Source: Agrococcus lahaulensis DSM 17612
GTDB taxonomy: Bacteria > Actinomycetota > Actinomycetes > Actinomycetales > Microbacteriaceae
Reading direction: 5' to 3'
NCBI RefSeq assembly: GCF_000425105.1
Contig: NZ_AULD01000006.1
Coordinates: 558,001-622,000 of the forward strand
DNA: 64,000 nucleotides
The position numbers and the translations under genes were made by a program. Of the stretch, positions 30,613 through 47,060 are shown in pieces (the stretch's first letter is position 1; each line of letters opens with the position of its first letter). The notes beneath the pieces are model-generated. The model made no database searches, was not told the DNA's origin, and saw only the letters and a program-made list of their open reading frames with translations.

Positions 30613-31094
30613 CTACGCGCCGTCGTGGTCGAGCGCGTACTGCCGCTGCCACGACTCGGGCCGCGGGATGCCGAGCCCGTAGAGGTAGCGGATGAGCTGC
30701 CCGTGGTGCTGCGTCTCGTGCTCCAGGAGCGCGAGGGCGCGCTGGAGCTGAGGGTGACGGCCCTTTCGGGCCGTCACCGCGACGCCAGCGCCGACGCCCG
30801 TCCCGGGCGTCGGTCGGCCGTACCGAGAGCAGAAGCCGCCGACTGGGCCTGTCGCGCATCCGTCATCTCCGCCTCGTCCAACGGACCGCTGAAGCCCTGC
30901 CACGACCCCGCGCGAGCGGCGCGCGGGTAGCTCTCGCGAGCGCCGAGCACGCACCACAGCTGCCCCGCGATCGTGCTGGAGGGCAGGCCCGGCAGCCGCG
31001 AGCCGAGCTGCTCGGGCGAGAGCCCGTCGATGAGCTCGAGGTAGAGGAGGTTCGCGCGCTCGAAGCGGCTCGCGAGGACGTCGTCGAAGGCCAT
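30613..31094 (-). pseudogene. DinB-family (DUF664-like) gene interrupted by structured repeat A
   Basis: The N-terminal part (from ATG 31094) reads MAFDDVLASRFERANLLYLE, then SSTIAGQLWCVLGARESY and AARAGSWQGFSGPL, as in DinB-superfamily four-helix proteins. The C-terminal part, in another frame, reads RALALLEHETQHHGQLIRYL, YGLGIPRPESWQRQYAL, with the metal-binding histidines of HETQHHGQ. Between them lies the 75-bp repeat at 30739-30813, which shifts the frame; the N-terminal frame stops inside it at 30774. Intact family members carry some 25 further residues at this junction, so native sequence was probably lost too. The product is presumably inactive. A TAGCAT box lies five bases before the ATG. 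Confidence 0.75.
30739..30813 (-). repeat. Structured repeat, copy A (in the DinB-family gene)
   Basis: On the plus strand GCGCTGG (30739-30745) pairs with CCAGCGC (30785-30791) and encloses an internal loop (AGCTGA / GCGACG) and an 11-pair stem, GGTGACGGCCC (30753-30763) with its complement at 30768-30778, closed by TTTC. A second hairpin, CCGACGCCCG-TCC-CGGGCGTCGG (30791-30813), abuts it. Read on the minus strand, the large stem ends in a GAAA loop. It differs from copy B at only two bases, which pair with each other. Three other copies are in this window. Confidence 0.85.
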
Positions 31095-31119
31095 GCCGGA
31101 TGCTACTGCGCGCGCCAGC

Positions 31120-31179
31120 GCAGAGTGTCGGCACTCTGCTGTTCCCCGGCCCGCGAATCGCAGAGTGTCGGCACTCTGC
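31120..31179. repeat. Two copies of a 20-bp inverted repeat
   Basis: GCAGAGTG-TCGG-CACTCTGC occurs at 31120-31139 and again, identical, at 31160-31179; the centres are 40 bp apart, about four helical turns. The right arm of the first overlaps the expected -35 region of the DinB-family gene. They could be tandem operators for that gene or hairpins at the old end of the methyltransferase transcript. No third copy was seen in the window. Confidence 0.6.
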
Positions 31180-31188
31180 GATGGGCTA

Positions 31189-31228
31189 GCGGCGGAAGGA
31201 GGCCACCGCCTCGACGTGGTGGGTGTGC
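31189..31228 (-). repeat. Duplicated 3' end of the RNA methyltransferase gene
   Basis: These 40 bases match 31314-31353, the end of the methyltransferase gene, at 38 positions. On the minus strand they encode the same peptide HTHHVEAVASFRR followed by TAG instead of TGA. Both mismatches are synonymous. The two copies flank structured repeat B. Confidence 0.8.
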
Positions 31229-31303
31229 GCGCTGGAGCTGAGGGTGACGACCCTTTCGGGTCGTCACCGCGACGCCAGCGCCGACGCCCGTCCCGGGCGT
31301 CGG
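31229..31303 (-). repeat. Structured repeat, copy B (after the RNA methyltransferase gene)
   Basis: It is identical to copy A except for A at 31250 and T at 31261, which replace a G-C pair of the large stem by A-T. The small hairpin (31281-31303) ends seven bases from the stop codon of the methyltransferase gene (31311) on the minus strand. The element is bracketed by a duplication of that gene's last 40 bases. Confidence 0.85.
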
Positions 31304-31310
31304 GAATCGC

Positions 31311-32573
31311 TCAGCGGCGGAAGGACGCCACCGCCTCGACGTGGTGGGTATGCGGGAACAGGTCGAACGCCTCGAGCGAGTCGACGCTCCAGCCGCGCTC
31401 CGCGAGCAGCTTCGCATCGCGCGCGAGCGCGACCGGGTCGCACGCGACGTAGACGATCTGCGCCGGCTCGAGCCTGACGAGCTGCTCGACGACCTCGCGG
31501 CCCGCGCCCGCGCGCGGCGGGTCGAGCACGACGACGCCGCGCGAGAGCCGCTCGCGCTCCGCCTTGCTCGCGCGCTTCGCGAGCTCGCGCAGCCAGCGGT
31601 CGACCCGGCCCGTCTCGGCGCTCGCGCCGATCCACTCGGCGAGGTTCTCGCTCGCGTGGTCGGTCGCGACCTCGTCGGCCTCGACGCTCGTCACGCGCGT
31701 CCGCTCCCCCAGCACTTCGGCGATCGTCGCCGCGAACAGCCCGACGCCGCCGTAGAGGTCGAGCGACCAGCCCGCCGCGTCGACCGCGTCGGCGTCGATC
31801 GCGCGACGCACCGCATCCGTCAGCACGCCGGGCGCCTCGCGGTGCACCTGCCAGAAGCCCGAGCGGTCGAGCTCGAACTCGCGCCCGCCGACCGTCTCGA
31901 CGATCGTGTCGGTGCGCCCGCGCTCGGGCGCGCCCTCCATCGCGATGACGTCGACCTCGTCGCCGTGCTGCACGTAGTCGACCGCGGTGACGCCCGGCAG
32001 ACGCTGGTCGAGCTGGGCGGAGAGGCGGATGCCCTCGGTCGCGAGCGGCAGATCGGTCACCGGCACGACCTCGTGGCTGCGCGGCGCGAACGGTCCCTGG
32101 CGGCCGCGGTCGTCGACGTGGAGGCGCACGCGCGTGCGCCAGCCGAGGCCGCCGCGCTCGTCGTCGCCGGGCGCCGCGGCGACCGGCACCTCGCGCGTCA
32201 TGCCGCCGGTGCGCTCGAGGGCGTCCTCGATGACGCGCTGCTTGAGCTCGCGCTGGCGCGGGAGCGCGATGTGGCCGAACTCCGCGCCGCCGGCCCGCTC
32301 GAGCGGGGCGCGATCGATGGATGCCTCGGTCCACACATGCGGGACGCGGTCGGGCGACGCCGACACGACGTCGAGCGCCACGGCGGTCGCGAACGACTTC
32401 TTCACCTCGACGACCTGCGCGCGCACCGTCTCGCCGGGCATCGTGTCGGGCACGAAGACGACCCGCCCGCGCTCATCGGAGTCGGTGCGGTGGCGGCCGA
32501 CGAAGCGGCCTCCGTGCGCGACGTTGTCGATCGTCAGCTCGACGATCCGGCCCTCTGCGATGTCCTGCGGCAT
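31311..32573 (-). CDS. TrmA/RumA-family RNA (uracil-C5) methyltransferase
   Basis: The 420-residue protein starts with a TRAM/OB domain (VELTIDNVAHGGRFVGRH, VRAQVVEVKKSFATA) and has a SAM-binding C-terminal domain with LDLYGGVGLFAATIAEV, VVLDPPRAGAGREVV and the catalytic-loop cysteine in YVACDPVALARDA; most relatives read SCNP there, so ACDP is a mild variant. The ending FPHTHHVEAVASF is the family's C-terminal signature and contains the general base region. It probably makes 5-methyluridine in 23S rRNA or tRNA; the four cysteines of the iron-sulfur cluster of RumA are not evident. ATG 32573 has GGAGG upstream. Its last 40 bases are duplicated downstream around repeat B. Confidence 0.88.
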   Translation of the reverse strand: MPQDIAEGRIVELTIDNVAHGGRFVGRHRTDSDERGRVVFVPDTMPGETVRAQVVEVKKSFATAVALDVVSASPDRVPHVWTEASIDRAPLERAGGAEFGHIALPRQRELKQRVIEDALERTGGMTREVPVAAAPGDDERGGLGWRTRVRLHVDDRGRQGPFAPRSHEVVPVTDLPLATEGIRLSAQLDQRLPGVTAVDYVQHGDEVDVIAMEGAPERGRTDTIVETVGGREFELDRSGFWQVHREAPGVLTDAVRRAIDADAVDAAGWSLDLYGGVGLFAATIAEVLGERTRVTSVEADEVATDHASENLAEWIGASAETGRVDRWLRELAKRASKAERERLSRGVVVLDPPRAGAGREVVEQLVRLEPAQIVYVACDPVALARDAKLLAERGWSVDSLEAFDLFPHTHHVEAVASFRR

Positions 32574-32605
32574 GGCTCCATCCTCCCGCATCGCGGCGGC
32601 CGGGC

Positions 32606-33556
32606 TCAGCCGAGCGAGCGCAGCGTGCTCGCGATCGCCTCGGCGCTGCGCTCGAGCCCCGTGCGCTCCGCGGGCTCCATCGGCACCTCGAGCACGCGCT
32701 CGACGCCCCCGCGGCCGAGCACGGTCGGGAGCGAGAGCGCGACGCCCTCGAGGCCGAGCTCGCCCTGCAGCACGCTCGAGACCGGCAGCACCGCGCGCTC
32801 GTCGCGCAGGATCGCCTCGACGATGCGGGCGGTCGAGACGCCGATCGCGCTCGAGGTCGCGCCCTTGCCCTCGATGATGCGGTACGCGGCGCGCACGACC
32901 TCGTCGGCGATGCGGTCGAGCTCGGCTTGCGGGAACCGCAGCTCGCCGCCCTCGCGCCACTCGCGCACGAGCACAGGGCCGATCTTCGCGCGCGACCACA
33001 GCGGCAGCTCGCTGTCGCCGTGCTCGCCGACGATGAGCGCATGTACGCTGCGCGGGTGCACGCCGACGAGCTCGGAGAGCCGCCAGCGCAGCCGCGACGT
33101 GTCGAGGACGGTGCCCGACGACAGCACCCGCGCGCGATCGACCCCGCTCTCGCGCTGGGCGACGACGGTGAGCACGTCGCACGGGTTCGTCACGATGAGG
33201 ACGATGGCGTCGGGCGCGTGCTCGCGGATGCCGGGCATGAGCGCGCGTACGATGTCGGCGTTGCGGGCGGCGAGCGCGAGCCGCGGCTCGCCGGGGCGCT
33301 GCTTGGCGCCGGCGGTGATGACGACGATGTCGCTCCCGGCTATGACCCGCAGGTCGCTGCCGCCCTCGACGCGCTTCGCGGCGAGGAACGGCATCGCGTG
33401 GGCGAGGTCGAGCACCTCCGCCTCGACCTTCGCGGCGGCGAGGTCGTGCAGCGCGACGACGTCGGCCGAGCCGCGGATGAGCGCCGCGTAGGCGATCGCG
33501 ACGCCCACGCCGCCGGCGCCGATGATGGACAGCTTCGTCGGTCGGCTCTGCTCCAT
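32606..33556 (-). CDS. ldh: L-lactate dehydrogenase
   Basis: This 316-residue enzyme interconverts pyruvate and L-lactate with NADH. The Rossmann motif IIGAGGVGVAIAYA, the VTNPCDVLTVVA segment and the catalytic IVGEHGDSELPLW are present, and the active-site loop contains QRPGEPRLALAARN: the residue after Q is that expected for lactate rather than malate dehydrogenases. A TAGCGT box ends six bases before ATG 33556, giving a leaderless start. The gene is followed 32 bases later by the methyltransferase gene. Confidence 0.88.
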   Translation of the reverse strand: MEQSRPTKLSIIGAGGVGVAIAYAALIRGSADVVALHDLAAAKVEAEVLDLAHAMPFLAAKRVEGGSDLRVIAGSDIVVITAGAKQRPGEPRLALAARNADIVRALMPGIREHAPDAIVLIVTNPCDVLTVVAQRESGVDRARVLSSGTVLDTSRLRWRLSELVGVHPRSVHALIVGEHGDSELPLWSRAKIGPVLVREWREGGELRFPQAELDRIADEVVRAAYRIIEGKGATSSAIGVSTARIVEAILRDERAVLPVSSVLQGELGLEGVALSLPTVLGRGGVERVLEVPMEPAERTGLERSAEAIASTLRSLG

Positions 33557-33562
33557 GGCTCG

Positions 33563-33568
33563 ACGCTA
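33563..33568 (-). promoter_or_regulatory. -10 box of ldh
   Basis: TAGCGT on the minus strand ends six bases before the ldh ATG; no Shine-Dalgarno is seen. Confidence 0.45.
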
Positions 33569-33650
33569 GGGGAGCCGCCCGCTCGCGCGCCACTGCCGCA
33601 GCGCCGATCGCCCGGCGCCGAGGCTCAGCCGCCGATGCGAGGATCGTGGC

Positions 33651-34283
33651 GTGCAGCTCATCCTCGCCTCCGCCTCCCCCGCCCGGCTCGCGCTCTTGCG
33701 GCAAGCGGGCATCGAGCCGATCGTGCGGCCGACCGACCTCGACGAGGAGCTGCTCATCGCTGCGCACGAGGCGGCGCACGGGCCGCTCTCGCCCGAGCGG
33801 TACGTGCTCGTGCTCGCGCGCGCGAAGGCCGAGGCGCTCCTCGACGAGGACCCGCTCGACGACTTCGACGGGCTCGTGCTCGGCGGCGACTCGTCGCTCG
33901 AGCTCGACGGCGCGATGCTCGGCAAGCCGCACACCCCCGAGCGCGCGCGCGAGCGCTGGCTCGCGCAGCGCGGCCGCTCGGCGACCCTGCACTCGGGGCA
34001 CTGGCTGCTGCGCGTGCGCTTCGGCGAGGTGATCGGATCGACGGGCACGGCGACGGCGACGCGCATCGACTTCGCCAGCGACATCGACGAGGCGGAGATC
34101 GACGCCTACGTCGCGACCGGCGAGCCGCTCGAGGTCGCGGGCGCGTTCACGATCGACGGACGCGGCGCCGCGTTCATCGACCGCATCGACGGCGACCCCT
34201 CGACGGTCGTCGGCATGAGCATCCCGGCCCTCCGGCGCCTCGCGCGCGAGCTCGGCGTCGCCTGGCCGGCGCTCACCGCCTGA
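33651..34283 (+). CDS. Maf-family nucleotide pyrophosphatase
   Basis: The 210-residue protein begins MQLILASASPARLALLRQAG, the Maf signature, and continues with VLARAKAEAL, VLGGDSSLELDG, GKPHTPERARERW, GEPLEVAGAFTIDGRGAAFI and VVGMSIPALRRL. Maf proteins hydrolyse non-canonical or m5U/m5C/dTTP-type nucleotides to monophosphates. The second motif reads GGDSSLEL where many have ADTVV, a moderate variation. GTG 33651 is the only start keeping the N-terminal strand. It is divergent from ldh. Confidence 0.88.
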   Translation: MQLILASASPARLALLRQAGIEPIVRPTDLDEELLIAAHEAAHGPLSPERYVLVLARAKAEALLDEDPLDDFDGLVLGGDSSLELDGAMLGKPHTPERARERWLAQRGRSATLHSGHWLLRVRFGEVIGSTGTATATRIDFASDIDEAEIDAYVATGEPLEVAGAFTIDGRGAAFIDRIDGDPSTVVGMSIPALRRLARELGVAWPALTA

Positions 34284-34375
34284 CCGCGACCGCATCGCGG
34301 TGCCCCAGCGCCCACTCTGCGATCTTGCAGGCGGCGCCAATAGCGTCGCCAGTCCGAGCGGGAGGAGGCACGAGC

Positions 34376-35116
34376 ATGGCGAATCGAGCGATGTGGGTGT
34401 GGATGCACGACGCTGCGCCGCCCGATCCGGCCGCAGTCGCCGCCTTCGCCGCGCAGCAGCGCGTCACCGAGGCGTTCGTGAGCGTGCCGTGGGGCGGGCC
34501 GACGCCCGCGACGCATCAGCAGGTCGCGGCGCTGCGCGGTCAGGGCGTGCGCGTCTCGGCGCTCGGCGGCGACCCGTCGTGGACGACCGGCGCCGACGCC
34601 GTCACGTGGATGCAGCGGGCGACCGCGGCGTTCCTCTTCCAGGGCGTCCACCTCGACATCGAGCCGTGGACCCGGCGCGACTGGCCGGGGCGCGAGCGCG
34701 AGCTGCTCGACGGTCTCGCGCGCACCGTGCGGGACGTGGCGGCGCGCACGGGCCTGCCGGTGGAGGTCGACCTCGCGCCGTGGCTCGCGGAAGCGCATCC
34801 GCGCCCGTTCGGCGACATCGTCGCGCGCGCGGACGCCGTCACCCTCATGGCCTACCGCGACCGGGCATCCGACATCCTGGCGTCGAGCGCAGCCGCTCGG
34901 CGCGCGATCGTCGGCGCTCGCAAGCCCTACCGGCTCGGGGTCGAGACGGGTCCGGTGGCCGAGCCGGAGCCGACCGCGGCGCAGACCTTCGCCGACGACG
35001 GGCGCGCCGTGCTCGAGCGCGAGCTCGCGGCGGTCACCGCGTCGCTCGCAGGCGATGCGCGCTTCGCGGGCATCGCCGTGCACGACGTCGAGAGCTGGCG
35101 CACGCTGGGCGCGTGA
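34376..35116 (+). CDS. Cytosolic glycoside-hydrolase-like TIM-barrel protein
   Basis: This 246-residue protein has no signal peptide or membrane segment. It opens with MANRAMWVWMHDAAPPDP and shows barrel strands typical of GH18-like or putative glycosidase folds: EAFVSVPWGG, GVRVSALGGD, FLFQGVHLDIEPW, PVEVDLAPW, AVTLMAYRD and FAGIAVHDVESW. The HLDIEPW strand puts an acid pair where family 18 enzymes keep DxxDxDxE, but the motif is incomplete. GGAGGAGG seven bases before ATG 34376 gives a strong ribosome site. Substrate and pathway are unknown; it stands between the Maf gene and an unrelated exporter. Confidence 0.6.
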   Translation: MANRAMWVWMHDAAPPDPAAVAAFAAQQRVTEAFVSVPWGGPTPATHQQVAALRGQGVRVSALGGDPSWTTGADAVTWMQRATAAFLFQGVHLDIEPWTRRDWPGRERELLDGLARTVRDVAARTGLPVEVDLAPWLAEAHPRPFGDIVARADAVTLMAYRDRASDILASSAAARRAIVGARKPYRLGVETGPVAEPEPTAAQTFADDGRAVLERELAAVTASLAGDARFAGIAVHDVESWRTLGA

Positions 35117-35120
35117 GCGC

Positions 35121-37175
35121 CTACGTCGACTGCTGCGTCGGCACCGCGCCCGTCTCGGTGAGCCCGCCGTCGGCCTCGAAGTCGACCGCGGCCTGCTCGA
35201 ACTGCGAGTTGAGCAGCCGCCAGTAGGCGCCTCGAGCGGCGACGAGCTCGTCGTGCGTGCCCTGCTCGACGATCGCGCCCTGCTCCATCACGAGGATGAG
35301 GTCGGCGTCGCGGATCGTCGAGAGCCGGTGCGCGATGACGAACGACGTGCGGTCGGTGCGCAGCGCCGCCATCGCGTGCTGCAGCAGCAGCTCGGTGCGC
35401 GTGTCGACCGAGGAGGTCGCTTCGTCGAGGATGAGCACGCTCGGCTGCGCGAGGAACGCGCGCGCGATCGTGACGAGCTGCTTCTCGCCCGCCGACAGGT
35501 TCGTCGCGTCCTCGTCGATGACCGTGTCGTAGCCCTCGGGCAGCGCGTGCACGAAGCGATCGACGTACGTCGCGCGCGCCGCCTCGAGGATCTGCTCCTC
35601 GGTCGCGTCGGGACGGCCGTACGCGATGTTGTCGCGGATCGTGCCGCCGAAGAGCCACGTGTCCTGCAGCACCATGCCCGTCTGCGAGCGGAGCGCATCC
35701 CTCGTCATCGCCCGGATGTCGACGCCGTCGAGCGCGATGCGGCCGCCGTCGACCTCGTAGAAGCGCATGAGCAGGTTGACGAGCGTCGTCTTGCCCGCGC
35801 CGGTCGGGCCGACGATCGCGACCGTCTGGCCGGGCTCGACCTCGAGCGAGAGGTCGTCGATGAGCGGCTTGTCGGGCGAGTACGAGAAGCGCACGCGCTC
35901 GAACGAGACGCGGCCCGAGCCGGGCGCGGGCGTCGCGCCGCCCTCGTCGGGCTCCTCCTCCTCGGCGTCGAGCACCTCGAAGACGCGCTCGGCGCTCGCG
36001 ACGCCCGACTGCACCATCGTGACCGTCTGGCCGATCTGGCCGAGGTTCTGCGAGAACTGCTGCGAGTACTGGATGAACGCCTGCACGTCGCCGACGAGGA
36101 TCTGGCCCGCCGCGACGAAGAGGCCGCCCGCGACGGCGACGAGCACGTAGCCGATGTTGCCGACGAAGGTCATGAGCGGGAAGACGAGGCCCGAGATGAA
36201 CTGCGCCTTGAACGCCGCGTCGAAGACGCCGTCGTTCTCCTCCTCGAAGCGCGCCCGCACTGCCTGCTCGCGGCCGAAGACCTTGACGAGCGCGTGGCCC
36301 GTGAAGGCTTCCTCGACGATCGCGTTCATGCGACCCGTGCGGCGCCACTGCTCCTTGAACAGGCCCTGCGCCGGACCCATGACGGCGCCGAGGATGATGC
36401 CGGTGAGCGGTACGGCGATGAGCGCGATGAGCGCGAGCCAGACGTTGATCGTCAGCATCATGACGAGCACGCCGATGACGCTCAGGATGCCCGTGACGAT
36501 CTGCGACATCGTCTGCGAGACGGTCTGCGAGACGTTGTCGAGGTCGTTCGTGACGCGCGAGAGCAGCTCGCCGCGCTGCGTGCGGTCGTAGTACGACAGC
36601 GGGAGCCGATGCACCTTCTCCTCGACGTCGCGCCGCAGCCCCTGCACCGTGCGCTGCACGACGCGGTTGACGACGAAGCCCTGCAGCCACTGGAAGAGGC
36701 TGCCCGCGAGGTAGACGGCGAGCACGACGAGCAGGATGCCCCCGAGCCGCTCGAAGTCGATGCCCGCGCCCGGCACGAGGTCGGGCATGCGCTCGACCAT
36801 GTTGGCGAAGTCGTCCTGACCGCCGGCGCGGAGCCCCTCGACGACCTGCGCCTGCGTCGCGCCCGGCGGCATCTGCCGCTGCACGAGGCCCTGCACGATG
36901 ACGTTCGTCGCCTCGCCGAGGATGCGCGGGCCGAGCACGACCAGCACGACGCCGACCGAGCCGAGCGCGAACACGAGCGCGAGCAGCCAGCGGTAGGGGT
37001 GCATGAGGCGCAGCAGCCGCAGCGCGGACGCGCCGAACGACTTCGCCTTGCCGGGCGGCGGCTCCCAGTCGCCCGCGCCGATGCGGGCGGCCTCGGCCTG
37101 CTCGGCCTCGATCCGCTCCTCCTCGGTGAGCTCGGGCTCCGGCGCCGCCGGCCGCTGCTTCTTCACGCGCGCCAT
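35121..37175 (-). CDS. ABC exporter half-transporter, catalytic-Glu subunit
   Basis: The 684-residue protein has a charged N-terminal extension of about 50 residues, six membrane helices, and an ABC domain with Walker A VGPTGAGKTT, Walker B LILDEATSS with the catalytic glutamate, and a divergent signature LSAGEKQ. ATG 37175 has GGAGG six bases upstream and lies one base after the stop of its partner gene. With that partner it makes a heterodimeric type IV exporter (TM287/288, LmrCD class), in which one ATP site is degenerate. Substrates are probably hydrophobic drugs or lipids; the TetR gene at the head of the operon supports an efflux role. Confidence 0.9.
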   Translation of the reverse strand: MARVKKQRPAAPEPELTEEERIEAEQAEAARIGAGDWEPPPGKAKSFGASALRLLRLMHPYRWLLALVFALGSVGVVLVVLGPRILGEATNVIVQGLVQRQMPPGATQAQVVEGLRAGGQDDFANMVERMPDLVPGAGIDFERLGGILLVVLAVYLAGSLFQWLQGFVVNRVVQRTVQGLRRDVEEKVHRLPLSYYDRTQRGELLSRVTNDLDNVSQTVSQTMSQIVTGILSVIGVLVMMLTINVWLALIALIAVPLTGIILGAVMGPAQGLFKEQWRRTGRMNAIVEEAFTGHALVKVFGREQAVRARFEEENDGVFDAAFKAQFISGLVFPLMTFVGNIGYVLVAVAGGLFVAAGQILVGDVQAFIQYSQQFSQNLGQIGQTVTMVQSGVASAERVFEVLDAEEEEPDEGGATPAPGSGRVSFERVRFSYSPDKPLIDDLSLEVEPGQTVAIVGPTGAGKTTLVNLLMRFYEVDGGRIALDGVDIRAMTRDALRSQTGMVLQDTWLFGGTIRDNIAYGRPDATEEQILEAARATYVDRFVHALPEGYDTVIDEDATNLSAGEKQLVTIARAFLAQPSVLILDEATSSVDTRTELLLQHAMAALRTDRTSFVIAHRLSTIRDADLILVMEQGAIVEQGTHDELVAARGAYWRLLNSQFEQAAVDFEADGGLTETGAVPTQQST

Positions 37176-37176
37176 C

Positions 37177-38901
37177 TCAGGCCTCCACTGCCATCTGCGA
37201 CTCGACGATCTCGCGGTACGTGTCGTTGCCCGCGAGCAGCTCCTCGTGCGTGCCCGAGCCGACCACGCGGCCGCGGTCGAGGACGATGATCCGGTCGGCG
37301 TCGACGATCGTCGAGACCCGCTGCGCGACGACGATCTGGGTGGTCTCGCCCACCGCGTCCCGCAGCGCCGCCCGCAGGCGCGCATCCGTCGTGAGGTCGA
37401 GCGCCGAGAACGAGTCGTCGAAGACGAGCACGTCGGGCTCGGCGACGAGGGCGCGGGCGATCGAGAGCCGCTGGCGCTGGCCGCCGGAGACGTTCGTGCC
37501 GCCCTGCGCGATGCGCGACTCGAGCTGCTTCGGCATCTGCTGCACGAAGCCCGCGGCCTGCGCGATCTCGAGCGCCCGCCACAGCTGCTCGTCGGTCGCG
37601 TCCTCGTTGCCGTAGCGGAGGTTCGAGGCCACCGTGCCGGCGAAGAGGTAGGGGCGCTGCGGCACGAGCGCGATGCCGCGCCAGAGCGCCTCGGCGTCGA
37701 GCTCGCGCACGTCGACGCCGCCGACGAGCACCGCGCCGCCCGTCGCGTCGAAGAGCCGCGGGATGAGGTTCACGAGGGTCGTCTTGCCCGCACCGGTCGA
37801 GCCGATGATCGCGAGCGTCTCGCCGCGCTCCGCGCGCAGGCTCACGCCGTCGAGCACGGGGTGCTCGGCGCCCGGGTAGCGGAAGACGACGTCGCGCAGC
37901 TCGATCGTGCCGGGCGAGACCTGCGCGCGGCCGGCGACGACGCGCTCGATCGTCGGCTCGGTCTCGAGCACCTCGCCGATGCGTCGGGCGGAGACCGCGG
38001 CCCTCGGGATCATGATCGTCATGAAGGTGGCCATGAGCACGCCCATGAGGATCTGCATGAGGTACTGCAGGAAGGCCATCATCGTGCCGATCTCGAGCTC
38101 GCCCTGATCGACGAGTCCCGCGCCGAACCAGATGACCGCGACGCTCGAGACCTCGACGATGAGCATGATGACGGGGAACATCAGCACGAAGAGGTTGCCG
38201 GTGCGGATCATCGCGTCGGTGACGTCGTCGTTCGCGACCGCGAAGCGCGCCTTCTCGCGCCGCTCCTGCACGAACGCGCGGATGACGCGGATGCCCGTGA
38301 GCTGCTCGCGCAGCACCTTGTTGATGCGGTCGATGCGCTCCTGCAGCTGCCGGAAGATCGGCACGAGGCGCGAGACGAGGAAGCCGAGCACGACGAGCAT
38401 GAGCGGCACGGAGACCGCGATGAGCCACGAGAGGGTCGCATCCGCCCGGATCGCCATGACGACGCCGCCGACCGCCATCATCGGCGCCGACAGCAGCATC
38501 GTGCACGACATGAGGATGAGCATCTGCACCTGCTGCACGTCGTTCGTGTTGCGGGTGATGAGGCTCGCGGCTCCGAAGCGCTGCACGTCCTGCTCGCTGA
38601 AGTCGCCGACCTTGCCGAAGAGGTCGGCGCGCAGGTCGCGGCCGGCGCGCATCGCGAGGCGCGCGCCGAAGAGGATCGCGAGCACGTTCGCGGCGACCTG
38701 CCCGAGGCTCAGCGCGAGCATGAGCACTCCGAGCCGCCACACCGTGCCGGTGTCGCCGCGCAGCACGCCCTCGTCGATGATGTCGGCGTTGATCGTCGGC
38801 AGCATGAGGGTGAGCACCGACTGCACGAACTGGAACAGCACGACGAGCAGGAGCGACAGCATCGAGGGCCGCACGGAGCGCACGATGAGCTTCCACAGCA
38901 T
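37177..38901 (-). CDS. ABC exporter half-transporter, degenerate-site subunit
   Basis: The 574-residue protein has six membrane helices and an ABC domain with Walker A IGSTGAGKTT, a canonical signature VSGGQRQRLSIARAL, and Walker B VLVFDDSFSALD in which aspartate replaces the catalytic glutamate. That change, matched by the divergent signature of the partner, marks the degenerate nucleotide site of heterodimeric exporters. It follows the TetR gene by three bases and precedes its partner by one, so the three form one operon. Confidence 0.9.
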   Translation of the reverse strand: MLWKLIVRSVRPSMLSLLLVVLFQFVQSVLTLMLPTINADIIDEGVLRGDTGTVWRLGVLMLALSLGQVAANVLAILFGARLAMRAGRDLRADLFGKVGDFSEQDVQRFGAASLITRNTNDVQQVQMLILMSCTMLLSAPMMAVGGVVMAIRADATLSWLIAVSVPLMLVVLGFLVSRLVPIFRQLQERIDRINKVLREQLTGIRVIRAFVQERREKARFAVANDDVTDAMIRTGNLFVLMFPVIMLIVEVSSVAVIWFGAGLVDQGELEIGTMMAFLQYLMQILMGVLMATFMTIMIPRAAVSARRIGEVLETEPTIERVVAGRAQVSPGTIELRDVVFRYPGAEHPVLDGVSLRAERGETLAIIGSTGAGKTTLVNLIPRLFDATGGAVLVGGVDVRELDAEALWRGIALVPQRPYLFAGTVASNLRYGNEDATDEQLWRALEIAQAAGFVQQMPKQLESRIAQGGTNVSGGQRQRLSIARALVAEPDVLVFDDSFSALDLTTDARLRAALRDAVGETTQIVVAQRVSTIVDADRIIVLDRGRVVGSGTHEELLAGNDTYREIVESQMAVEA

Positions 38902-39531: not shown

Positions 39532-39538
39532 GACGATC

Positions 39539-39567: not shown

Positions 39568-39576
39568 GCGCGGATC

Positions 39577-40462: not shown

Positions 40463-40478
40463 CTGTGGGAATCCGCAA
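40463..40478. promoter_or_regulatory. Second copy of the carboxylase operator candidate
   Basis: CTGTGGGAATCCGCAA differs from the 16-mer at 22296-22311 by G to A and A to G. It lies 68 bases before the ATG of the carboxylase alpha subunit and 54 before its -10 box. Apart from this 16-mer the surrounding sequences are unrelated. Confidence 0.5.
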
Positions 40479-40532
40479 CCGAACCAGGCATTCCTGTGTG
40501 GCGTGCGCACGCATCCGCCATGTCCTCCCGCT

Positions 40533-40538
40533 TAGGCT
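40533..40538 (+). promoter_or_regulatory. -10 box of the carboxylase alpha subunit
   Basis: TAGGCT ends eight bases before ATG 40547; no Shine-Dalgarno is present in the interval CTAGAACC, so translation is probably leaderless. Confidence 0.5.
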
Positions 40539-40546
40539 CTAGAACC

Positions 40547-42313
40547 ATGCGCCGCATCACCAAGGTCCTCATCGCCAATCGCGGCGAGATCGCCGTCCGC
40601 ATCATCCGGGCGGCGCGCGACGCCGGCATCGGCTCGGTCGCCGTCTACGCCGAGCCCGACCGCGACGCGCAGCACGCGCAGCTCGCCGACGAGGCCTTCG
40701 CGCTGCACGGCTCGACGAGCGCCGAGAGCTACCTCGTGATCGACAAGCTGCTCTCGGTCGCGCGCCGCTCGGGCGCCGACGCCGTGCACCCGGGCTACGG
40801 CTTCCTGGCCGAGAACGCCGACTTCGCGCGCGCCGTCATCGACGCGGGCCTCATCTGGATCGGCCCGAGCCCCGACGCGATCGAGCAGCTCGGCGACAAG
40901 GTCTCGGCCCGCCACATCGCCGAGTCGGTCGGCGCACCGCTCGCGCCCGGCACGATCAACCCCGTCGCGGGCGCGGCCGAGGTGCTCGAGTTCGTCGACG
41001 AGCACGGGCTGCCAGTCGCGATCAAGGCCGCCTTCGGCGGTGGCGGCCGCGGCCTCAAGGTCGCCCGCACGCGCGAGGAGGTCGAGGAGCAGTTCGACTC
41101 CGCGACTCGCGAGGCGGTCGCGGCGTTCGGCCGCGGCGAGTGCTTCGTCGAGAAGTACCTCGACAGGCCGCGCCACGTCGAGACGCAGTGCCTCGCCGAC
41201 GCGCACGGCAACGTGGTCGTCGTCTCGACGCGCGACTGCTCGCTGCAGCGCCGCCACCAGAAGCTCGTCGAGGAGGCGCCCGCGCCCTTCATCACCGCCG
41301 AGCAGGACGCCGAGCTGCGCCGCGCGTCGAAGGCGATCCTGCGCGCCGCCGGCTACGTCGGCGCCGGCACGTGCGAGTTCCTCATCGGCGCCGACGGCAC
41401 GATCTCGTTCCTCGAGGTCAACACGCGCCTGCAGGTCGAGCACCCGGTCTCGGAGGAGGTCACCGGCATCGACCTCGTGCGCGAGCAGTTCCGCATCGCC
41501 GAGGGCGAGGCGCTCGGCTACGACGACCCCGAGGTGCGCGGCCACTCGATCGAGTTCCGCATCAACGGCGAGGACGCCGGTAGCGGCTTCATCCCCCAGC
41601 CCGGCCCCGTGCGCGTGTTCCGCGCCCCGAGCGGCCCCGGCATCCGCGTCGACTCCGGCGTCGTCGCCGGCGACGTCATCGGCGGCAGCTTCGACTCGAT
41701 GCTCGCGAAGCTCATCGTCACCGGCCGCGACCGCGCCGAGGCGCTCGCCCGCGCTCGGCGGGCGCTCGCGGAGTTCGAGGTCGAGGGGCTGCCGACGGTG
41801 CTGCCCTTCCATCGCCGCATCGTCGACCACCCGGCGTTCGCGCCCGAGGGCGACGCGCCCTTCTCGATCTACACCTCGTGGATCGAGACGGAGTTCGAGA
41901 ACGACATCCCCGCGTGGGGTGGCGAGCCCTCGGAGCTCGGCGGCCCCGAGCCGCGCCGCACCGTCGTCGTCGAGGCCGACGGCAAGCGCATCGCGGTGTC
42001 GATGCCCAAGCGCCTCTTCTCCGACACGAAGGACGCGAAGGGCCCCGCACCGCGCCGGATGCGCACGGCGCTCGCGGGCGGCGTCGGCTCGGGCACGATC
42101 GTCTCGCCCATGCAGGCGACGGTCGTGAAGGCGGCGGTCGCCGAGGGCGACCGGGTCGTCGCGGGCGACCTGCTCGTCGTGCTCGAGGCGATGAAGATGG
42201 AGCAGCCGCTCTCCTCCCCCGTCGACGGCGTCGTCACGGCGATCGACGCGCCGGTGGGCGCGACGGTGCCTTCGGGCCACCGCCTCGTCTCGATCACGCC
42301 TGACGAGGCCTGA
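40547..42313 (+). CDS. accA: Acyl-CoA carboxylase alpha subunit (biotin carboxylase + BCCP)
   Basis: The 588-residue protein joins a biotin carboxylase (about 1-450) to a C-terminal biotin carrier domain (about 515-588). It shows [30 protein letters not shown], the ATP-grasp loop [31 protein letters not shown] and the biotin site EAMKMEQ with K550. This is the AccA3/AccBC type shared by acetyl- and propionyl-CoA carboxylases. Its carboxyltransferase and epsilon partners are 16 kb upstream, and BirA beside them biotinylates K550. The start follows a TAGGCT box; an upstream frame extension lacks homology. Confidence 0.95.
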
Positions 42314-42337
42314 CCCGCGCGGCGGCCCGCGCGGGTC
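42312..42337. terminator. Bidirectional terminator hairpin
   Basis: GACCCGCGCG (42312-42321) pairs perfectly with CGCGCGGGTC (42328-42337) around a six-base loop, filling almost all of the gap between the convergent alpha-subunit and lpdA genes. There is no U-tract. Confidence 0.65.
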
Positions 42338-42339
42338 GC

Positions 42340-43797
42340 TCAGAGCTCGAGCTGCTCCTGCGCCACGTGCATCGAGCGGGCGACGTCGGTGACCGAGCCC
42401 GAGAGCGAGGGGTAGACGGCCCACGCACGGGCGAACTGGTCGACCGTGAGGCGCTGCTCGATCGCGAGCGAGAGCGGCAGGATGAGCTCGGATGCGCGGG
42501 GGGCGACGACGACGCCGCCCACGATCGTGCCGAGGTCGGTGCCCGCGATGAGCTTCACGAAGCCGTCCTGCACGCCCTGCATCTTCGCGCGCGGGTTGTG
42601 GCTGAGCGGCAGCTTCACGATGCGCGCCTCGCGCTCGCCCGCGTCGATCGACGCCTGCTGCCAGCCGACGGTCGCGATCTCGGGGTAGGTGAAGATGTTC
42701 GACGCGACGTTGCGGAGCGTGATCGGCCGCACCTCGTCGCCGAGCGCGTGGAAGATCGCCGTGCGCCCCTGCACGGAGGCGACCGACGCGAGCGGGAAGA
42801 ACGCGGTGCAGTCGCCCGCGGCGTAGATGTGCGGCACCGAGGTGCGCGCGACGCGGTTGACGCGGATGTGGCCGGAGTCGGTCGTCTGCACACCCGCGGC
42901 ATCGAGGCCGATCCCCTCGGTGTTCGGCACCGCGCCGACCGCCATGAGGCAATGGCTGCCGCGGATCTCGCGGCCGTCGGAGAGCGTCACGACGACCTCG
43001 TCGCCGTCGCGCACGACGCTCGTCGCCCGCTGCTTGTTGAGCACGTGCATCCCGCCGCGACGGAAGACCTCCTCGATCACGTCAGCGGCGTCGGTGTCCT
43101 CACCGGGCAGCACGCGCTCGCGGCTCGAGACGAGCGTCACCTCCGAGCCGAGCAGCCGGTAGGCGGAGGCGAACTCGGCGCCCGTGACGCCCGAGCCGAC
43201 GACGATGAGGTGCGAGGGCATCTCGTTGAGGTCGTAGAGCTGCGTCCAGGTGAGGATGCGCTCGCCGTCGGGCTGCGCGCTCGGCAGCACGCGCGGGCGC
43301 GCGCCGACCGAGACGACCGCGGTGTCGAGCTCGAACGAGTCGAAGTCCTTCGCGTTCGCGCCGCCGGTCGAGACGGCGACGGTCGTCGGGCTCGTGAAGC
43401 GGCCCTCGCCCTCGACGACCTGCACGCCGAGCGCCTCGAGCGTCTGGCGCATGTCGTCGGACTGGCTGTGCGCGAGCCGGCGGATGCGCTTGTTGAGCTT
43501 CGTGAAGTTGACCGCGACCTCGGGGCGGAGCGGCCGGTCGCGGTCGCCGCGCGCGAAGAACTGCACGCCGAGCTCGTCGGCCTGCTCGATCGCGGCGGCC
43601 GACTCGGCGGATGCGATGAGCGTCTTCGAGGGGACGACGTCGGTGAGCACCGCGCTGCCGCCGACGCCGGCGCGCTCGATGAGCGTCACCTCCGCGCCGA
43701 GCTGGGCTCCCGCGAGCGCCGCCTCGTAGCCGCCAGGTCCGCCGCCGATGATCACCACGCGCTGCCTGCGCTCGAATGCACTCACGTGCTCCATCAT
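42340..43797 (-). CDS. lpdA: LpdA-type NAD(P)H-quinone dehydrogenase
   Basis: The protein (485 residues from ATG 43797) belongs to the flavoprotein disulfide reductase superfamily: VVIIGGGPGGYEAALAGAQL, GSGVTGAEFASAYRLLGSEV for NAD, and HIYAAGDCTAF. The redox motif is GGSAVLTDVVPSK, in which A49 and V54 replace both active-site cysteines, so it cannot act as lipoamide dehydrogenase. This matches mycobacterial LpdA (Rv3303c), a cysteine-less quinone reductase. A GTG at 43785 with GGAG close by is an alternative start. Structured repeat C lies just upstream, between this gene and yaeQ. Confidence 0.88.
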   Translation of the reverse strand: MMEHVSAFERRQRVVIIGGGPGGYEAALAGAQLGAEVTLIERAGVGGSAVLTDVVPSKTLIASAESAAAIEQADELGVQFFARGDRDRPLRPEVAVNFTKLNKRIRRLAHSQSDDMRQTLEALGVQVVEGEGRFTSPTTVAVSTGGANAKDFDSFELDTAVVSVGARPRVLPSAQPDGERILTWTQLYDLNEMPSHLIVVGSGVTGAEFASAYRLLGSEVTLVSSRERVLPGEDTDAADVIEEVFRRGGMHVLNKQRATSVVRDGDEVVVTLSDGREIRGSHCLMAVGAVPNTEGIGLDAAGVQTTDSGHIRVNRVARTSVPHIYAAGDCTAFFPLASVASVQGRTAIFHALGDEVRPITLRNVASNIFTYPEIATVGWQQASIDAGEREARIVKLPLSHNPRAKMQGVQDGFVKLIAGTDLGTIVGGVVVAPRASELILPLSLAIEQRLTVDQFARAWAVYPSLSGSVTDVARSMHVAQEQLEL

Positions 43798-43808
43798 CGC
43801 GCATCCGC

Positions 43809-43881
43809 GCGGTGGAGCTGAAAGCCGAGGGCCTTTCGGCCCTCGGCCGCGACCCCAGCGCCGGGCCCGTCCCGGGCCCGG
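43809..43881 (-). repeat. Structured repeat, copy C (after yaeQ)
   Basis: It shares with A and B the GGAGCTGA segment, the TTTC loop, GCGACC, CCAGCGCC and CCCGTCCCGGG, but the stems are different sequences: GCCGAGGGCC (43824-43833) with its complement at 43838-43847, and CCGGGCCCG-TCC-CGGGCCCGG (43861-43881). All of these pairs are perfect. The outer stem has one G.G mismatch (43812 and 43858). The small hairpin ends 14 bases from the yaeQ stop on the minus strand. Confidence 0.8.
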
Positions 43882-43895
43882 TCTTCCCCGAGCGC

Positions 43896-44435
43896 TCAGC
43901 CCGCCCGACGCTCGTGGATCGCCGTCGAGAGCGCGGCGCCGTTCACCTCGGCGTAGAGCACGCCCTCGGTCACCGAGACCGTCATCGACGTGCGGCGCGC
44001 GACGGCGTCGGCGACCGCGTCGACGAATCCGGGGTCGAACGAGACGAGCCGCACGTCCTCGGGTCGGTGGATGCGCTTGCCCGCCCAGCGCGCGGCGACC
44101 CTCTCGGGGTCGCGGTGCGTGTAGACGGCGCAGCGATCGGCAGCCATGCTGCCGCGGTGCACGCGCTCGGCCTCGGGCGCGCCCACCTCGATCCACGCGA
44201 CGAGCGAACCGGTGCGGTCGCGGACGAGCACCGCGGGCTCGTCGCCGCCCGAGAGCCCGTCGCCGAACGCGATGCCCTCCTCGTGCTCGAGGCACAGCGC
44301 GAGCACGCGCGTCACCATGAACGCGGCGGTCTCGGAGGGGTGCTGGGCGACCTTGAGCGAGAGCTCCTCGTAGACGCCGCGGTCGACGTCGGAGAGCTGC
44401 ACCTCGAAGGTGTGCACGGTCGCGCCGATGGCCAT
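43896..44435 (-). CDS. yaeQ: YaeQ family protein
   Basis: The 179-residue protein matches YaeQ along its length: ATVHTFEVQLSDVDRGVYEE, LSLKVAQHPSETAAFMVTRV, FGDGLSGGDEPAVLVRDR, WIEVGAPEAERVHRGSMAAD and a VSVTEGVLYAEVNGAAL ending. YaeQ has a nuclease-related (PD-(D/E)XK) fold with the acidic DEPA and WIE residues retained here; its biological role is unclear. TAGGCT eight bases before ATG 44435 marks the promoter. It is divergent from the purine nucleoside phosphorylase gene and is followed by repeat C. Confidence 0.9.
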   Translation of the reverse strand: MAIGATVHTFEVQLSDVDRGVYEELSLKVAQHPSETAAFMVTRVLALCLEHEEGIAFGDGLSGGDEPAVLVRDRTGSLVAWIEVGAPEAERVHRGSMAADRCAVYTHRDPERVAARWAGKRIHRPEDVRLVSFDPGFVDAVADAVARRTSMTVSVTEGVLYAEVNGAALSTAIHERRAG

Positions 44436-44443
44436 GGTGCTCC

Positions 44444-44497
44444 AGCCTAGGCGTGCGAGCGCGCCGGGGCTGCCGAGCCCGCCCTCGCCCCTAGAGT
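44444..44497. promoter_or_regulatory. Divergent leaderless promoters, yaeQ / purine nucleoside phosphorylase
   Basis: TAGGCT on the minus strand (44444-44449) ends eight bases before the yaeQ ATG, and TAGAGT on the plus strand (44492-44497) ends seven bases before the phosphorylase ATG. The gap is only 69 bases. Confidence 0.55.
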
Positions 44498-44504
44498 GGG
44501 CGCC

Positions 44505-45335
44505 ATGACGCACCCGCTCGATGCCCCCGCAGATCCGCGCGAGGTCGCGCGCCAGGCCGCCGACGACATCCGCCGCATCACCGGCGTCGAGTCGCACGAC
44601 ATCGCCCTCACGCTCGGCTCCGGCTGGGCGCGCGCGGCCGACCTGCTCGGCGAGACGACGCACACGATCCCCGCGACCGAGGTGACGGGCTTCTCGAAGC
44701 CCGCGCTCGAGGGCCACGTCGGCACCATCCGCTCGGTGCTCACCGACGACGGGCGCCGCGCGCTCGTCATCGGCGCGCGCACCCACTACTACGAGGGGCA
44801 CGGGGTGCGCCGCGTCGTCCACTCCGTCCGCACCGCCGCGCAGGCCGGCGCATCCGTCATGGTGCTCACGAACGGCGCCGGCGGCATCAAGCCGCACTGG
44901 AGCCCGGGCCAGCCCGTGCTCATCAGCGACCACATCAACCTCACCGCCGACTCGCCGCTCGAGGGCGCGACGTTCGTCGACCTCACCGACCTCTACTCGC
45001 CGCGGCTGCGCGACATCGCGCGCGAGGTCGACGGCAGCCTCGACGAGGGCGTCTACGTGCAGTTCCGCGGGCCCCACTACGAGACGCCCGCCGAGGTGCA
45101 GATGGCGAAGGCGATCGGCGGCCACATCTGCGGCATGTCGACGGCGCTCGAGGCGATCGCCGCGCGCGAGGCGGGCATGGAGGTGCTCGGCCTGAGCCTC
45201 ATCACGAACCTCGCCGCGGGCATCCAGACCACGCCCCTCTCGCATGAGGAGGTCATCGAGGCCGGCCGCGAGGCCGAGGGCCGCATCTCGCGCCTGCTCG
45301 CCGACGTCGTCGCCGCGATCGGCGCCCGAGCATGA
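44505..45335 (+). CDS. punA: Purine nucleoside phosphorylase
   Basis: This 276-residue trimeric-type phosphorylase splits purine (deoxy)nucleosides with phosphate into base and (deoxy)ribose 1-phosphate. It has IALTLGSGWARAA for phosphate binding, YYEGHGVRRVVHSVR, VLTNGAGGI, ISDHINLTADSPLEG, YVQFRGPHYETPAEVQM and LSLITNLAAGI with the N in the base site. ATG 44505 follows a TAGAGT box by seven bases. It is translationally coupled (ATGA) to the phosphosugar mutase. Confidence 0.93.
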   Translation: MTHPLDAPADPREVARQAADDIRRITGVESHDIALTLGSGWARAADLLGETTHTIPATEVTGFSKPALEGHVGTIRSVLTDDGRRALVIGARTHYYEGHGVRRVVHSVRTAAQAGASVMVLTNGAGGIKPHWSPGQPVLISDHINLTADSPLEGATFVDLTDLYSPRLRDIAREVDGSLDEGVYVQFRGPHYETPAEVQMAKAIGGHICGMSTALEAIAAREAGMEVLGLSLITNLAAGIQTTPLSHEEVIEAGREAEGRISRLLADVVAAIGARA

Positions 45336-46999
45336 GCCTCGACGCCGCCCGCGCCTGGGCCGCGGCCGACCCCGACCCCGAGACCCGCGCGGAGCTCGAG
45401 GCGACGATCGCTGCCGCCGAGGCGGGCGACGAGGCCGCGATGGCCGAGGTGACGGATGCGTTCCGCGGCCGCTTGCAGTTCGGCACGGCGGGGCTGCGGG
45501 GCCGCATCGCCCCGGGCCCGAACCGCATGAACACGGTCGTCGTGCAGCAGGCCTCCGCGGGGCTCGCGCGCTACCTCGTCGATCGGGAGCCCTACCCCTC
45601 GGTCGTGATCGGCTGGGACGGGCGGCGCGGCTCGGAGCGCTTCGCGCGGGACGCCGCCGAGGTCTTCGCTGGCGCTGGCGTGCGGGCGATCCTGCTGCCG
45701 CGGCTGCTGCCGACGCCCGTCACCGCCTTCGCCGTGCGCCACCTCGGCGCGAGCGCGGGCGTCATGGTGACCGCGAGCCACAACCCGCCCGCCGACAACG
45801 GCTACAAGGTGTACCTCGGCGGCGCCGACGAGGGCAGCCAGATCGTGCCGCCCGCCGACGCCGAGATCGCCGCCCGCATCGTCGAGGCGGCCGCCGTGCC
45901 CGTGACCGAGTACCCGCGCGGCGAGCCGGAGGTCGCGGGCGAGGGCGTCTGGGAGTCGTACGTCGCGGCGACCGCTGCGATCGGCCAGCCCGACCAGGGC
46001 ATGCCGGGCGCCGGCGGCCCCCGCGTCGTCTACACGCCGCTGCACGGCGTCGGCCTCGAGACGGTGCGCGCGGTGCTCGACGCCGCGGGCTTCCCGCCGG
46101 TGACGGTCGTGCCCGAGCAGGCCGAGCCCGACGGCGCGTTCCCGACCGTCGACTTCCCGAACCCGGAGGAGCCGGGCGCGCTCGACCTCGCGATGGCGCT
46201 CGCCACGGCGGAGGGCGCCGAGCTCATCCTCGCGAACGACCCCGACGCCGACCGGCTCGCGGTCGCGGCGCCGGATGCGTCGGCGCCGGCCGGCTGGCGG
46301 ATGCTCACGGGCAACGAGGTCGGCCTGCTGCTCGGCTGGGACGCCGCGCGCGCGGCGCGCGGGCACGGCGTGCTCGCCGCCTCGATCGTCTCCTCCCCCG
46401 GCCTCGGCGTCATCGCCGAGGCGCACGGGCTCGAGTTCGTGCAGACCCTTACGGGCTTCAAGTGGGTCTCGCGCGTGCCCGGGCTCGTCTACGGCTACGA
46501 GGAGGCGCTCGGCTACCTCGTGAACCCGGGCACCGTGCGCGACAAGGACGGCATCTCGGCGCTCGTGCGCATCCTCACGCTCGCGAGCGAGCTGCACGAG
46601 CGGGGCTCGTCGCTCGCCGAGGAGCTGCTCGCGCTCGCGGCCGAGTTCGGCGCGTTCGAGTCGGGTCAGGTGAGCGTGCGGGTCACCGACCTCGCGCGCA
46701 TCCCCGCGCTCATGGCCGCGCTGCGCCAGGCGCCGCCGACCGAGCTCGCCGGCGCGGCCGTGGTCGCGGCCGACGACCTCGCGCTGCCCGAGCACGGCTC
46801 GATCGGCGACATCCTGCGCTTCACGCTCGACGACGGCTCGCGCGTCATGGTGCGGCCGAGCGGCACCGAGCCGAAGCTCAAGGTCTACATCGACGCGACG
46901 TCGACCGACGGCCCGCCCGCGGCGCGCGTGCGCGCGGCGCGCGAGCGGGTCGCGGCGATCGCCGATGCGGTGCGGCCGCTGCTGGCGCGCTGGAGCTGA
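45332..46999 (+). CDS. Phospho-sugar mutase (phosphoglucomutase/phosphopentomutase-like)
   Basis: The 555-residue alpha-D-phosphohexomutase has LQFGTAGLRGRI, the phosphoserine loop VMVTASHNPPADNGYKVY, the metal loop ANDPDADRLAVA, GNEVGLLLG, LTGFKWVSR and the phosphate-binding MVRPSGTEPKLKVYID. Being coupled to the purine nucleoside phosphorylase gene suggests that it turns ribose 1-phosphate into ribose 5-phosphate, besides any hexose activity. Its last codons, LARWS and the TGA at 46997-46999, lie inside structured repeat D, so the repeat supplies the C-terminus. Confidence 0.88.
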   Translation: MSLDAARAWAAADPDPETRAELEATIAAAEAGDEAAMAEVTDAFRGRLQFGTAGLRGRIAPGPNRMNTVVVQQASAGLARYLVDREPYPSVVIGWDGRRGSERFARDAAEVFAGAGVRAILLPRLLPTPVTAFAVRHLGASAGVMVTASHNPPADNGYKVYLGGADEGSQIVPPADAEIAARIVEAAAVPVTEYPRGEPEVAGEGVWESYVAATAAIGQPDQGMPGAGGPRVVYTPLHGVGLETVRAVLDAAGFPPVTVVPEQAEPDGAFPTVDFPNPEEPGALDLAMALATAEGAELILANDPDADRLAVAAPDASAPAGWRMLTGNEVGLLLGWDAARAARGHGVLAASIVSSPGLGVIAEAHGLEFVQTLTGFKWVSRVPGLVYGYEEALGYLVNPGTVRDKDGISALVRILTLASELHERGSSLAEELLALAAEFGAFESGQVSVRVTDLARIPALMAALRQAPPTELAGAAVVAADDLALPEHGSIGDILRFTLDDGSRVMVRPSGTEPKLKVYIDATSTDGPPAARVRAARERVAAIADAVRPLLARWS

Positions 47000-47060
47000 A
47001 GCCGGAGACCCTCTCGGGTCTCCGGCGCGACGCCAGCGCCCCGGCCCGTCCCGGGCCGGG
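46987..47060 (-). repeat. Structured repeat, copy D (between the mutase and EIIA genes)
   Basis: The outer stem GCGCTGG (46987-46993) with CCAGCGC (47033-47039) is the same as in A and B. The inner stem is GCCGGAGACCC (47001-47011) with its complement at 47016-47026, closed by TCTC (GAGA on the minus strand). The small hairpin is CCCGGCCCG-TCC-CGGGCCGGG (47040-47060). All pairs are perfect although the stem sequences differ from A-C. It carries the mutase stop codon and ends four bases from the EIIA stop. Confidence 0.85.

Follow-up and report, generated by a model that had tools for sequence, protein, structure and literature searches.

Two-hairpin palindromic repeats with signs of mobility in Agrococcus and other Microbacteriaceae

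Introduction

Several families of short bacterial repeats resemble the element described here. The MIRU of mycobacteria are units of 77–101 bp that lie on stop codons (DTGA sites) and occur in tandem copies; to our knowledge, they have no two-hairpin plan. The YPAL or RU-2 elements of Yersinia and Erwinia are around 168 bp long and are flanked by target duplications of 3–26 bp, the agent that moves them being unknown in the account drawn on here (PMC2229807). The CGTC REPs are shorter (20–40 bp), with one stem of 8–9 bp, A/T pairs first, an unpaired CGTC tag, a loop of 4–5 nucleotides and a CCA tail, and actinobacteria are not among the hosts given in the part of the description used here (PMC3733652).

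Results

The window, a stretch of 64,000 nucleotides of Agrococcus lahaulensis DSM 17612, contains four copies of an element of about 77 bp, all on the plus strand. With the extents given by the covariance model, these are copy A (30737..30813), copy B (31227..31303), copy C (43807..43882) and copy D (46985..47061). An earlier reading, made from the sequence only, had placed four copies here in a single orientation, which is confirmed. Copy A lies inside a broken gene, copy B adjoins a tRNA uracil-methyltransferase-like gene (31311-32573, minus strand) and copy C is conserved in position across five species. The first 15 bases of copy D contain the last codons and the TGA stop of a phosphoglucomutase gene (45332-46999, plus strand). 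Copies A and B differ at two of their 77 positions, which are both halves of one stem pair, and they therefore count as nearly one sequence. A pattern of loop letters and spacings matched copies A, B and C, with 0 matches in 100 shuffles, while copy D was missed because its loop reads TCTC. All four copies fold far better than their shuffles, both as DNA (z from -4.35 to -6.26) and as RNA (z from -4.46 to -6.67).

That the four copies form one family is borne out by the covariance model, which gives 301 matches in 20 of the 24 Agrococcus genomes. Further copies are present in the source genome, which has 13 in all, and in the Microbacteriaceae, where 85 of 398 genomes have matches, representing 29 of 85 genera. 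Positions are scattered and partly species-specific. In genome contigs, a letter pattern retrieved 62 stretches, 57 from Agrococcus records, three from Pseudolysinimonas kribbensis and two from metagenome-assembled genomes; this pattern requires TTTCG, so most copies of other genera are missed by it. The latter two genomes are labelled only as Actinomycetales bacterium and uncultured Microbacteriaceae. Among 31 genomes of the order outside the family, a strict pattern had one match (G064), in which the stems are absent; reversed, as a control, it had three matches in 80 genomes, and we do not claim that the element is confined to the family. No pattern match was found on plasmids, phages or viral contigs, including with a pattern allowing ATTTC loops.

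The sequence-only reading knew of no named element with this plan, and no family of Rfam 15 reached its gathering score within the 64-kb window. When E-values were considered, the only families overlapping copy B were Scr5676 (E 0.93; 17.8 bits against a cut-off of 56) and MIR918 (E 3.8; 15.8 bits against a cut-off of 268), and elements of six other loci were matched by none. Searches of an open-licence literature library turned up no description of the element. GC skew, with 20 samples each from two genomes (G012 and G016), provided no usable origin with which to assess replication-strand bias.

The element has constant ends (GCGC...GG) and two adjoining hairpins, whose stems are freely variable yet matched, while the loop letters (TGGAGCT, GCGAC, CCA, TTTC and GTCYC) are fixed. 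GGAGC and GCGAC are located inside the internal loop; of the AGCTGA previously assigned to that loop, the part belonging to GGAGC(T) is constant and the bases that follow vary. The inner stem is G+C-rich and 11 bp long, with G-C pairs first. Columns are numbered from the first G of GCGCTGG as column 1, and the start of the element lies two bases before it. In this numbering, covariation pairs columns -1 to 2 with columns 50 to 53, column 3 with 47 and column 4 with 46, and does not back the register proposed earlier (GCGCTGG with CCAGCGC), to which energy folding of copies A, B and D, both as DNA and as RNA, also leads. In 219 places selected by their loop letters only, pair 4-50 of that register is C-G in 119 but G-G in 73, whereas pair 4-46 is C-G in 119 and G-C in 70; pair 0-52 is C-G in 168, A-T in 14, G-C in 4 and T-A in 1. 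Stem covariation exceeds both shuffled and slid controls in a set of 26 copies picked from 31 for good pairing, and the set chosen by loop letters agrees, which supports the proposal that the stems change while remaining paired. Read from the minus strand, the tag takes the form CGTC only in copies with G in column 46, which are 87 of 151 copies of the genus and 35 of 45 others.

The apparent mobility of the elements, indicated by target duplications and empty sites, had not been foreseen by the earlier reading. Flanking direct repeats occur at 22 of 214 copies, compared with 2 of 639 mismatched pairs, and the remaining 192 copies have no significant flanking repeat. The repeats are variable in length (about 16–50 bp) and, abutting the left end at this minority of copies, stop 0–5 bases from it in 22 of 22. 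The right repeat is usually separated from the element by 0–29 extra bases, with 43 and 52 in two cases. These 22 copies represent about 16 sites, three of which are tandem elements or another repeat. At the cleanest site (L011), a target of 33–37 bp is doubled around the element and present only once at 11 of 15 loci of relatives. At another (L134), the target lies in dyad symmetry and occurs once in G000 and twice in G014. The window itself holds an empty target site at 128..163 (G000:C2:558128-558163, with the window starting at C2:558001), a stretch that is single here and doubled around an element in G006.

The direct repeats flanking copy B are 95.2% identical over 42 bp: the right one (31313..31354) is the 3' end native to the tRNA uracil-methyltransferase-like gene, and the left one (31188..31229) is its duplicate. 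Tandem growth and apparent loss are seen at this site. The gene containing copy A (remains at 30613..31094, minus strand, about 146–152 codons when intact) is broken here and open in five relatives, and copy A plus about 34 further bases stand in for about 90 bases of it. The protein of an intact relative has no match in Pfam; it may resemble DinB-type enzymes. Identical copies in one genome (G331) sit inside a different repeat, and recombination may account for their spread. Movement is needed to explain the target duplications and empty sites, and the copies look mobile as judged from these comparisons.

The left end of an element often coincides exactly with a native stop codon: of 89 upstream genes on the same strand, 36 have their stop at position +1 or +2 relative to the element. 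The flanking genes are convergent in 61 cases and divergent in 13, and are arranged (-,-) in 50 and (+,+) in 25, the element being mostly antisense to its upstream gene in the last two arrangements. The comparisons indicate that elements were inserted at new places, often exactly at gene ends. Most copies are found at gene 3' ends, with stops coinciding with the element start, which would also be expected of an RNA structure selected at mRNA 3' ends (as terminator, or for processing or stability) and inherited mainly by vertical descent. Site C fits this explanation too, its loops being unchanged across five species while its stems have altered in step. We nevertheless consider it unlikely, given the antisense orientation, the movement required by duplications and empty sites, and the composition of the stems. 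Folded RNA normally tolerates many G.U pairs, but G.T occupies only 33 of 4326 stem cells, slightly more than A.C with 19 (p 0.07). This scarcity, despite the slight excess over A.C, favours folding as a DNA hairpin rather than as RNA, so that of the selected RNA or single-stranded DNA structure suggested earlier, the DNA form is favoured and the RNA form disfavoured.

The fixed letters kept at site C suggest either a role in the host or exchange between copies. The stem changes there include flips from C-G to G-C between orthologous copies, and these, like the single pair in which copies A and B differ, could be produced by template switching during replication, in which palindrome correction keeps stems matched and covariation is mutational, with no sign of function. 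As the source of the covariation this is quite unlikely, since the loop letters are constant across genera as well, and pair 4-46, which adjoins the internal loop, covaries outside any long perfect palindrome. Template switching and mobility are compatible and not mutually exclusive.

Two enzyme families were searched for as movers, within the genus, and no mobilising gene was found. Reverse transcriptase (PF00078) was found in only 2 of the 24 Agrococcus genomes, the same search being positive in 3 of 14 controls, and sequence shared after the element is not in excess (flank-match pairs are right-only in 45 and left-only in 48), so there is no common tail. A SINE-like retroposon copied from RNA, to which long and variable target duplications would be suited, is thus very improbable. 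Least credible is that the element is a REP sequence moved by a Y1 tyrosine transposase (RAYT), despite the short palindromes, the many copies at gene ends and the GGAG next to the hairpin, as PF01797 was found in 0 of 24 genomes of the genus, with 5 of 14 controls positive. The left end GCGCGCTGG and the right end ...GGGCGTCGG are not inverted repeats of each other, so the terminal inverted repeats of a MITE of a DDE transposon are absent. In G331 and G325, which have paired copies, an autonomous transposon lying between them was also considered, but the open frames there look by eye like ordinary host genes.

Discussion

The family probably consists of small (about 77 bp), palindromic, non-autonomous mobile DNA repeats that behave like YPAL. 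Points against this reading are the many copies with no significant flanking repeat, the extra bases before the right repeat, the G331 copies that recombination may have spread, the letters conserved at site C, and the absence of a mobilising gene among the two families searched for within the genus. One DNA strand of the element would fold, and a putative trans-acting enzyme would recognise the constant loops together with the shape of the folded strand. The target would be opened by staggered nicks about 16–50 nucleotides apart, the element would be joined in there, and filling-in would generate the flanking repeats. Where the repeated stretch holds the last codons of a gene, the gene would survive, so that copies would accumulate at gene 3' ends, exact stop-codon starts aside. 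Some of them may later have gained a role as terminator or mRNA end. A more specific proposal, for the family as a whole, is put forward tentatively: the folded DNA might be recognised through its fixed loop letters while the stems drift freely, with insertion at stop codons and long, variable target duplications brought about by an undescribed enzyme or host process.

The family bears on how short palindromic repeats without a known mover, such as CGTC REPs and YPAL, spread. It has hundreds of copies, empty sites that are clean, cases of tandem growth and of loss, and strong covariation, and its hosts belong to a bacterial family with many cultured members, so that both the agent of movement and the function of the fold become testable. 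Covarying stems with fixed loops do not necessarily imply a functional RNA.

Among known systems, the MIRU likewise lie on stop codons, as our element does at 36 of the 89 upstream genes mentioned above; going by their general description, it differs from them in its two-hairpin plan. GTAG REPs and REPINs with a RAYT are, as far as their description was drawn on, also palindromes dispersed at gene ends (PMC3733652), but our element has no GTAG-type tag at the foot of its hairpin, and no Y1 transposase was found in the 24 Agrococcus genomes. The CGTC REPs, in the same partial account, share more with it: they are palindromic, often lie 3' of genes, lack a known dedicated transposase and have CCA beside the hairpin, and part of our copies have CGTC on the other strand (PMC3733652). 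Here, however, there are two hairpins and an inner stem of 11 bp that is G+C-rich, and in CGTC a G often takes the place of the C. YPAL/RU-2, to which our element is likened by description only, differ in length (about 168 bp versus about 77 bp), in host phylum and in target duplications (3–26 bp versus about 16–50 bp, with 33–37 bp at the cleanest site). In the features covered by the account used here, both are small, not A+T-rich and have internal but no terminal inverted repeats, both have target duplications of variable length with empty and filled sites, and both have targets at or beside dyad symmetry, as at our L134 target (PMC2229807).

Structure and covariation of the repeat

Copies A (30737–30813), B (31227–31303), C (43807–43882) and D (46985–47061) are found on the plus strand, where the sequence-only reading had placed them and in the form described there. 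Relative to dinucleotide shuffles, their folds have z-scores from -4.35 to -6.26 as DNA and from -4.46 to -6.67 as RNA. Columns are numbered from the first G of GCGCTGG, two bases after the element start. The outer stem originally proposed (GCGCTGG / CCAGCGC) shows no covariation across copies. Energy folding prefers this register in copies A, B and D, so that both it and the covarying register may form.

In an alignment of 26 copies, 98.2% of the cells are paired and the covariation score is 0.353, versus 0.103 for shuffled and at most 0.090 for slid controls. As these copies had been picked out of 31 for good pairing, the test was redone on places selected solely by their loop letters (222 found, 219 evaluated). 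The inner stem forms 10 or 11 of its 11 pairs in 178 of the 219 and hairpin 2 forms 8 or 9 of its 9 pairs in 168; a separate low-pairing group consists of chance matches. Pair 4–46 is C-G in 119 places and G-C in 70, while pair 0–52 is C-G in 168, A-T in 14, G-C in 4 and T-A in 1. The covariation claimed from the four window copies is thus borne out, by the score above both controls and by the loop-letter set.

At site C the element occupies one place in five species, among which neither GCGGTGGAGC nor the block GCGACCCCAGCGCC varies and the stems differ by matched changes; in the same alignment, a remnant is present in G022 and the element is absent from six others. This retention may reflect selection by the host or exchange between copies.

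Distribution of the family

The palindromic repeat family is real and widespread. An exact pattern finds 6 copies in the window's genome. Among 80 genomes, a looser pattern has matches in 13 of 24 Agrococcus genomes and 1 of 56 others (reversed control, three matches); the stems are missing from the match in that sole non-genus genome, G064, and from one of seven matches in the window's genome. The further copies expected from a covariance-model search were obtained with a model made from the 26 copies: at E 0.01 or better it gives 301 matches (per-genome counts summed) in 20 of the 24 congeners, 13 in the window's genome and up to 33 elsewhere, with none at this threshold in G009, G010, G021 and G023. 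Across Microbacteriaceae (E 1e-4, stricter filters, scoring limited to 12 candidates per genome), at least 85 of 398 sampled genomes and at least 29 of 85 genera have matches. In named records the host genus is Agrococcus, with additional copies in Pseudolysinimonas kribbensis. Two weaker model matches (L055:1501–1577 and L056:1501–1573; 50 and 44 bits) keep the two-hairpin plan and the TTTC and GTCYC loops, without GGAGC/GCGAC, and are possibly a sister family.

Open-licence literature searches gave no description of the family, and Rfam, a check suggested at the outset, returned no family at cut-off and only weak sub-threshold matches. Those to microRNAs arise because copies of GCAGAGTGTCGGCACTCTGC form a long hairpin. 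This 20-base palindrome represents a second short repeat family. It occurs twice at 31116–31183, adjoining copy B, and once in the G022 locus, and it has further matches at G000:C2:323537 (the window's genome) and G016:C1:183.

Insertion sites and probable mobility

Comparison of flanks and related loci makes mobility of the element well supported. A left-right flank repeat scoring at least 16 is present in 22 of 214 copies (4 of 218 had flanks too short to include) versus 2 of 639 mismatched pairs. The repeat lies 0–5 bases from the left end in all 22 and 0–29 bases from the right end, except for two rows with gaps of 52 and 43. About 16 sites account for these 22 copies, as the B site contributes six rows, from different species, and the L134 site two. 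Three further rows (L312, L196 and L185) reflect tandem elements or another repeat; with these set aside the repeats are 16–50 bp long.

At the L011 site the target is single (33–37 bp) in 11 of 15 relatives' loci, including the window's genome (128–163), and doubled in G006; of the remaining four, three have no clean target and one no left match. At the L134 site (G014:C19:32324–32400) the target occurs once in the window's genome (20-bp overlap) and twice around the element in G014, while G022 has two elements; among 11 loci, the left match is absent in 7 and two others carry different DNA there. This target sits within GAGAGCCCCGC...GCGGGGCTCTC, a native dyad that is probably a terminator hairpin.

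Elements stand in tandem in L196 (three copies) and in L201, L083 and L077 (two copies each), with a duplicated flank or nearly nothing between them. In G331, the copies at L311–L314 and L316–L318 lie within or adjoining another palindromic repeat, GGTTGAGTA...GAAACC; six identical 77-bp copies inside it may have spread together with this host repeat.

At the copy A site, an open frame of 146–152 codons is intact in five relatives; its protein has no Pfam matches. The element breaks this frame in the window's genome and G016, with roughly 90 gene bases replaced. In G016 copy A (L225, G016:C1:2428000–2430200) is itself split by about 1.46 kb containing a Transposase_mut (PF00872) gene, its two matching pieces overlapping by 8 bases. 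Copy B is flanked by 42-bp repeats, 95.2% identical, which are the 3' end of a tRNA uracil-methyltransferase-like gene. At this site G012 has the element without the left repeat, G005 two copies in tandem and G006 a remnant between the repeats; the single repeat in G016 has the letters of the left copy, as would follow from a loss of B between its repeats. Histories of the B site in these four genomes are read from such arrangements.

Relation to gene ends

Gene calls were based on codon usage, trained on 23 window ORFs. The flanking genes of 172 copies are oriented (+,-) in 61, (-,-) in 50, (+,+) in 25 and (-,+) in 13; the other 23 either lack a gene call on one side or sit inside a called gene. 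An upstream gene on the same strand is present at 89 copies, not all independent as some are orthologous. The stop codon of this gene ends at +1 for 19 copies and at +2 for 17; for 29 it ends within the element, between +14 and +23, and for the remaining 24 it precedes the element. Two stop-codon sites were compared with relatives. At the first, GGCGACTGA is present in 15 of 20 loci and also in the element's copy, which then continues as element; at the second, 13 of 14 element-free loci have a stop codon there, exactly CTCGAGTAG in three. At TGA stops the second base of the element is A, and its stem partner is usually T (exception L202), from which we infer that the stem adapts to the insertion target.

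Nature of the fold and comparison with known systems

Watson-Crick pairs fill 4230 of the 4326 stem cells in 177 distinct copies; the rest are 33 G.T, 19 A.C and 44 other. This set excludes copies whose inner stem pairs poorly, as well as any poorly paired hairpin 2, and the filter treated G.T as a pair. Selection at the RNA level normally leaves many G.U pairs, so the scarcity of G.T makes a DNA hairpin the better reading, and the fold likely acts as DNA rather than RNA. G.T is slightly commoner than A.C (p 0.07), however, which points the opposite way. Of the RNA or single-stranded DNA structure first suggested, the DNA side is therefore favoured and the RNA side less so.

Genome-wide searches of the 24 Agrococcus genomes for two families of candidate movers found Y1 transposases in none and reverse transcriptases in two. 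The element ends are not inverted repeats, and the element belongs to neither the GTAG REP nor the CGTC REP class. CGTC REPs are likewise without a known mover (PMC3733652). By behaviour, YPAL of Yersinia (PMC2229807) is nearest to the element.
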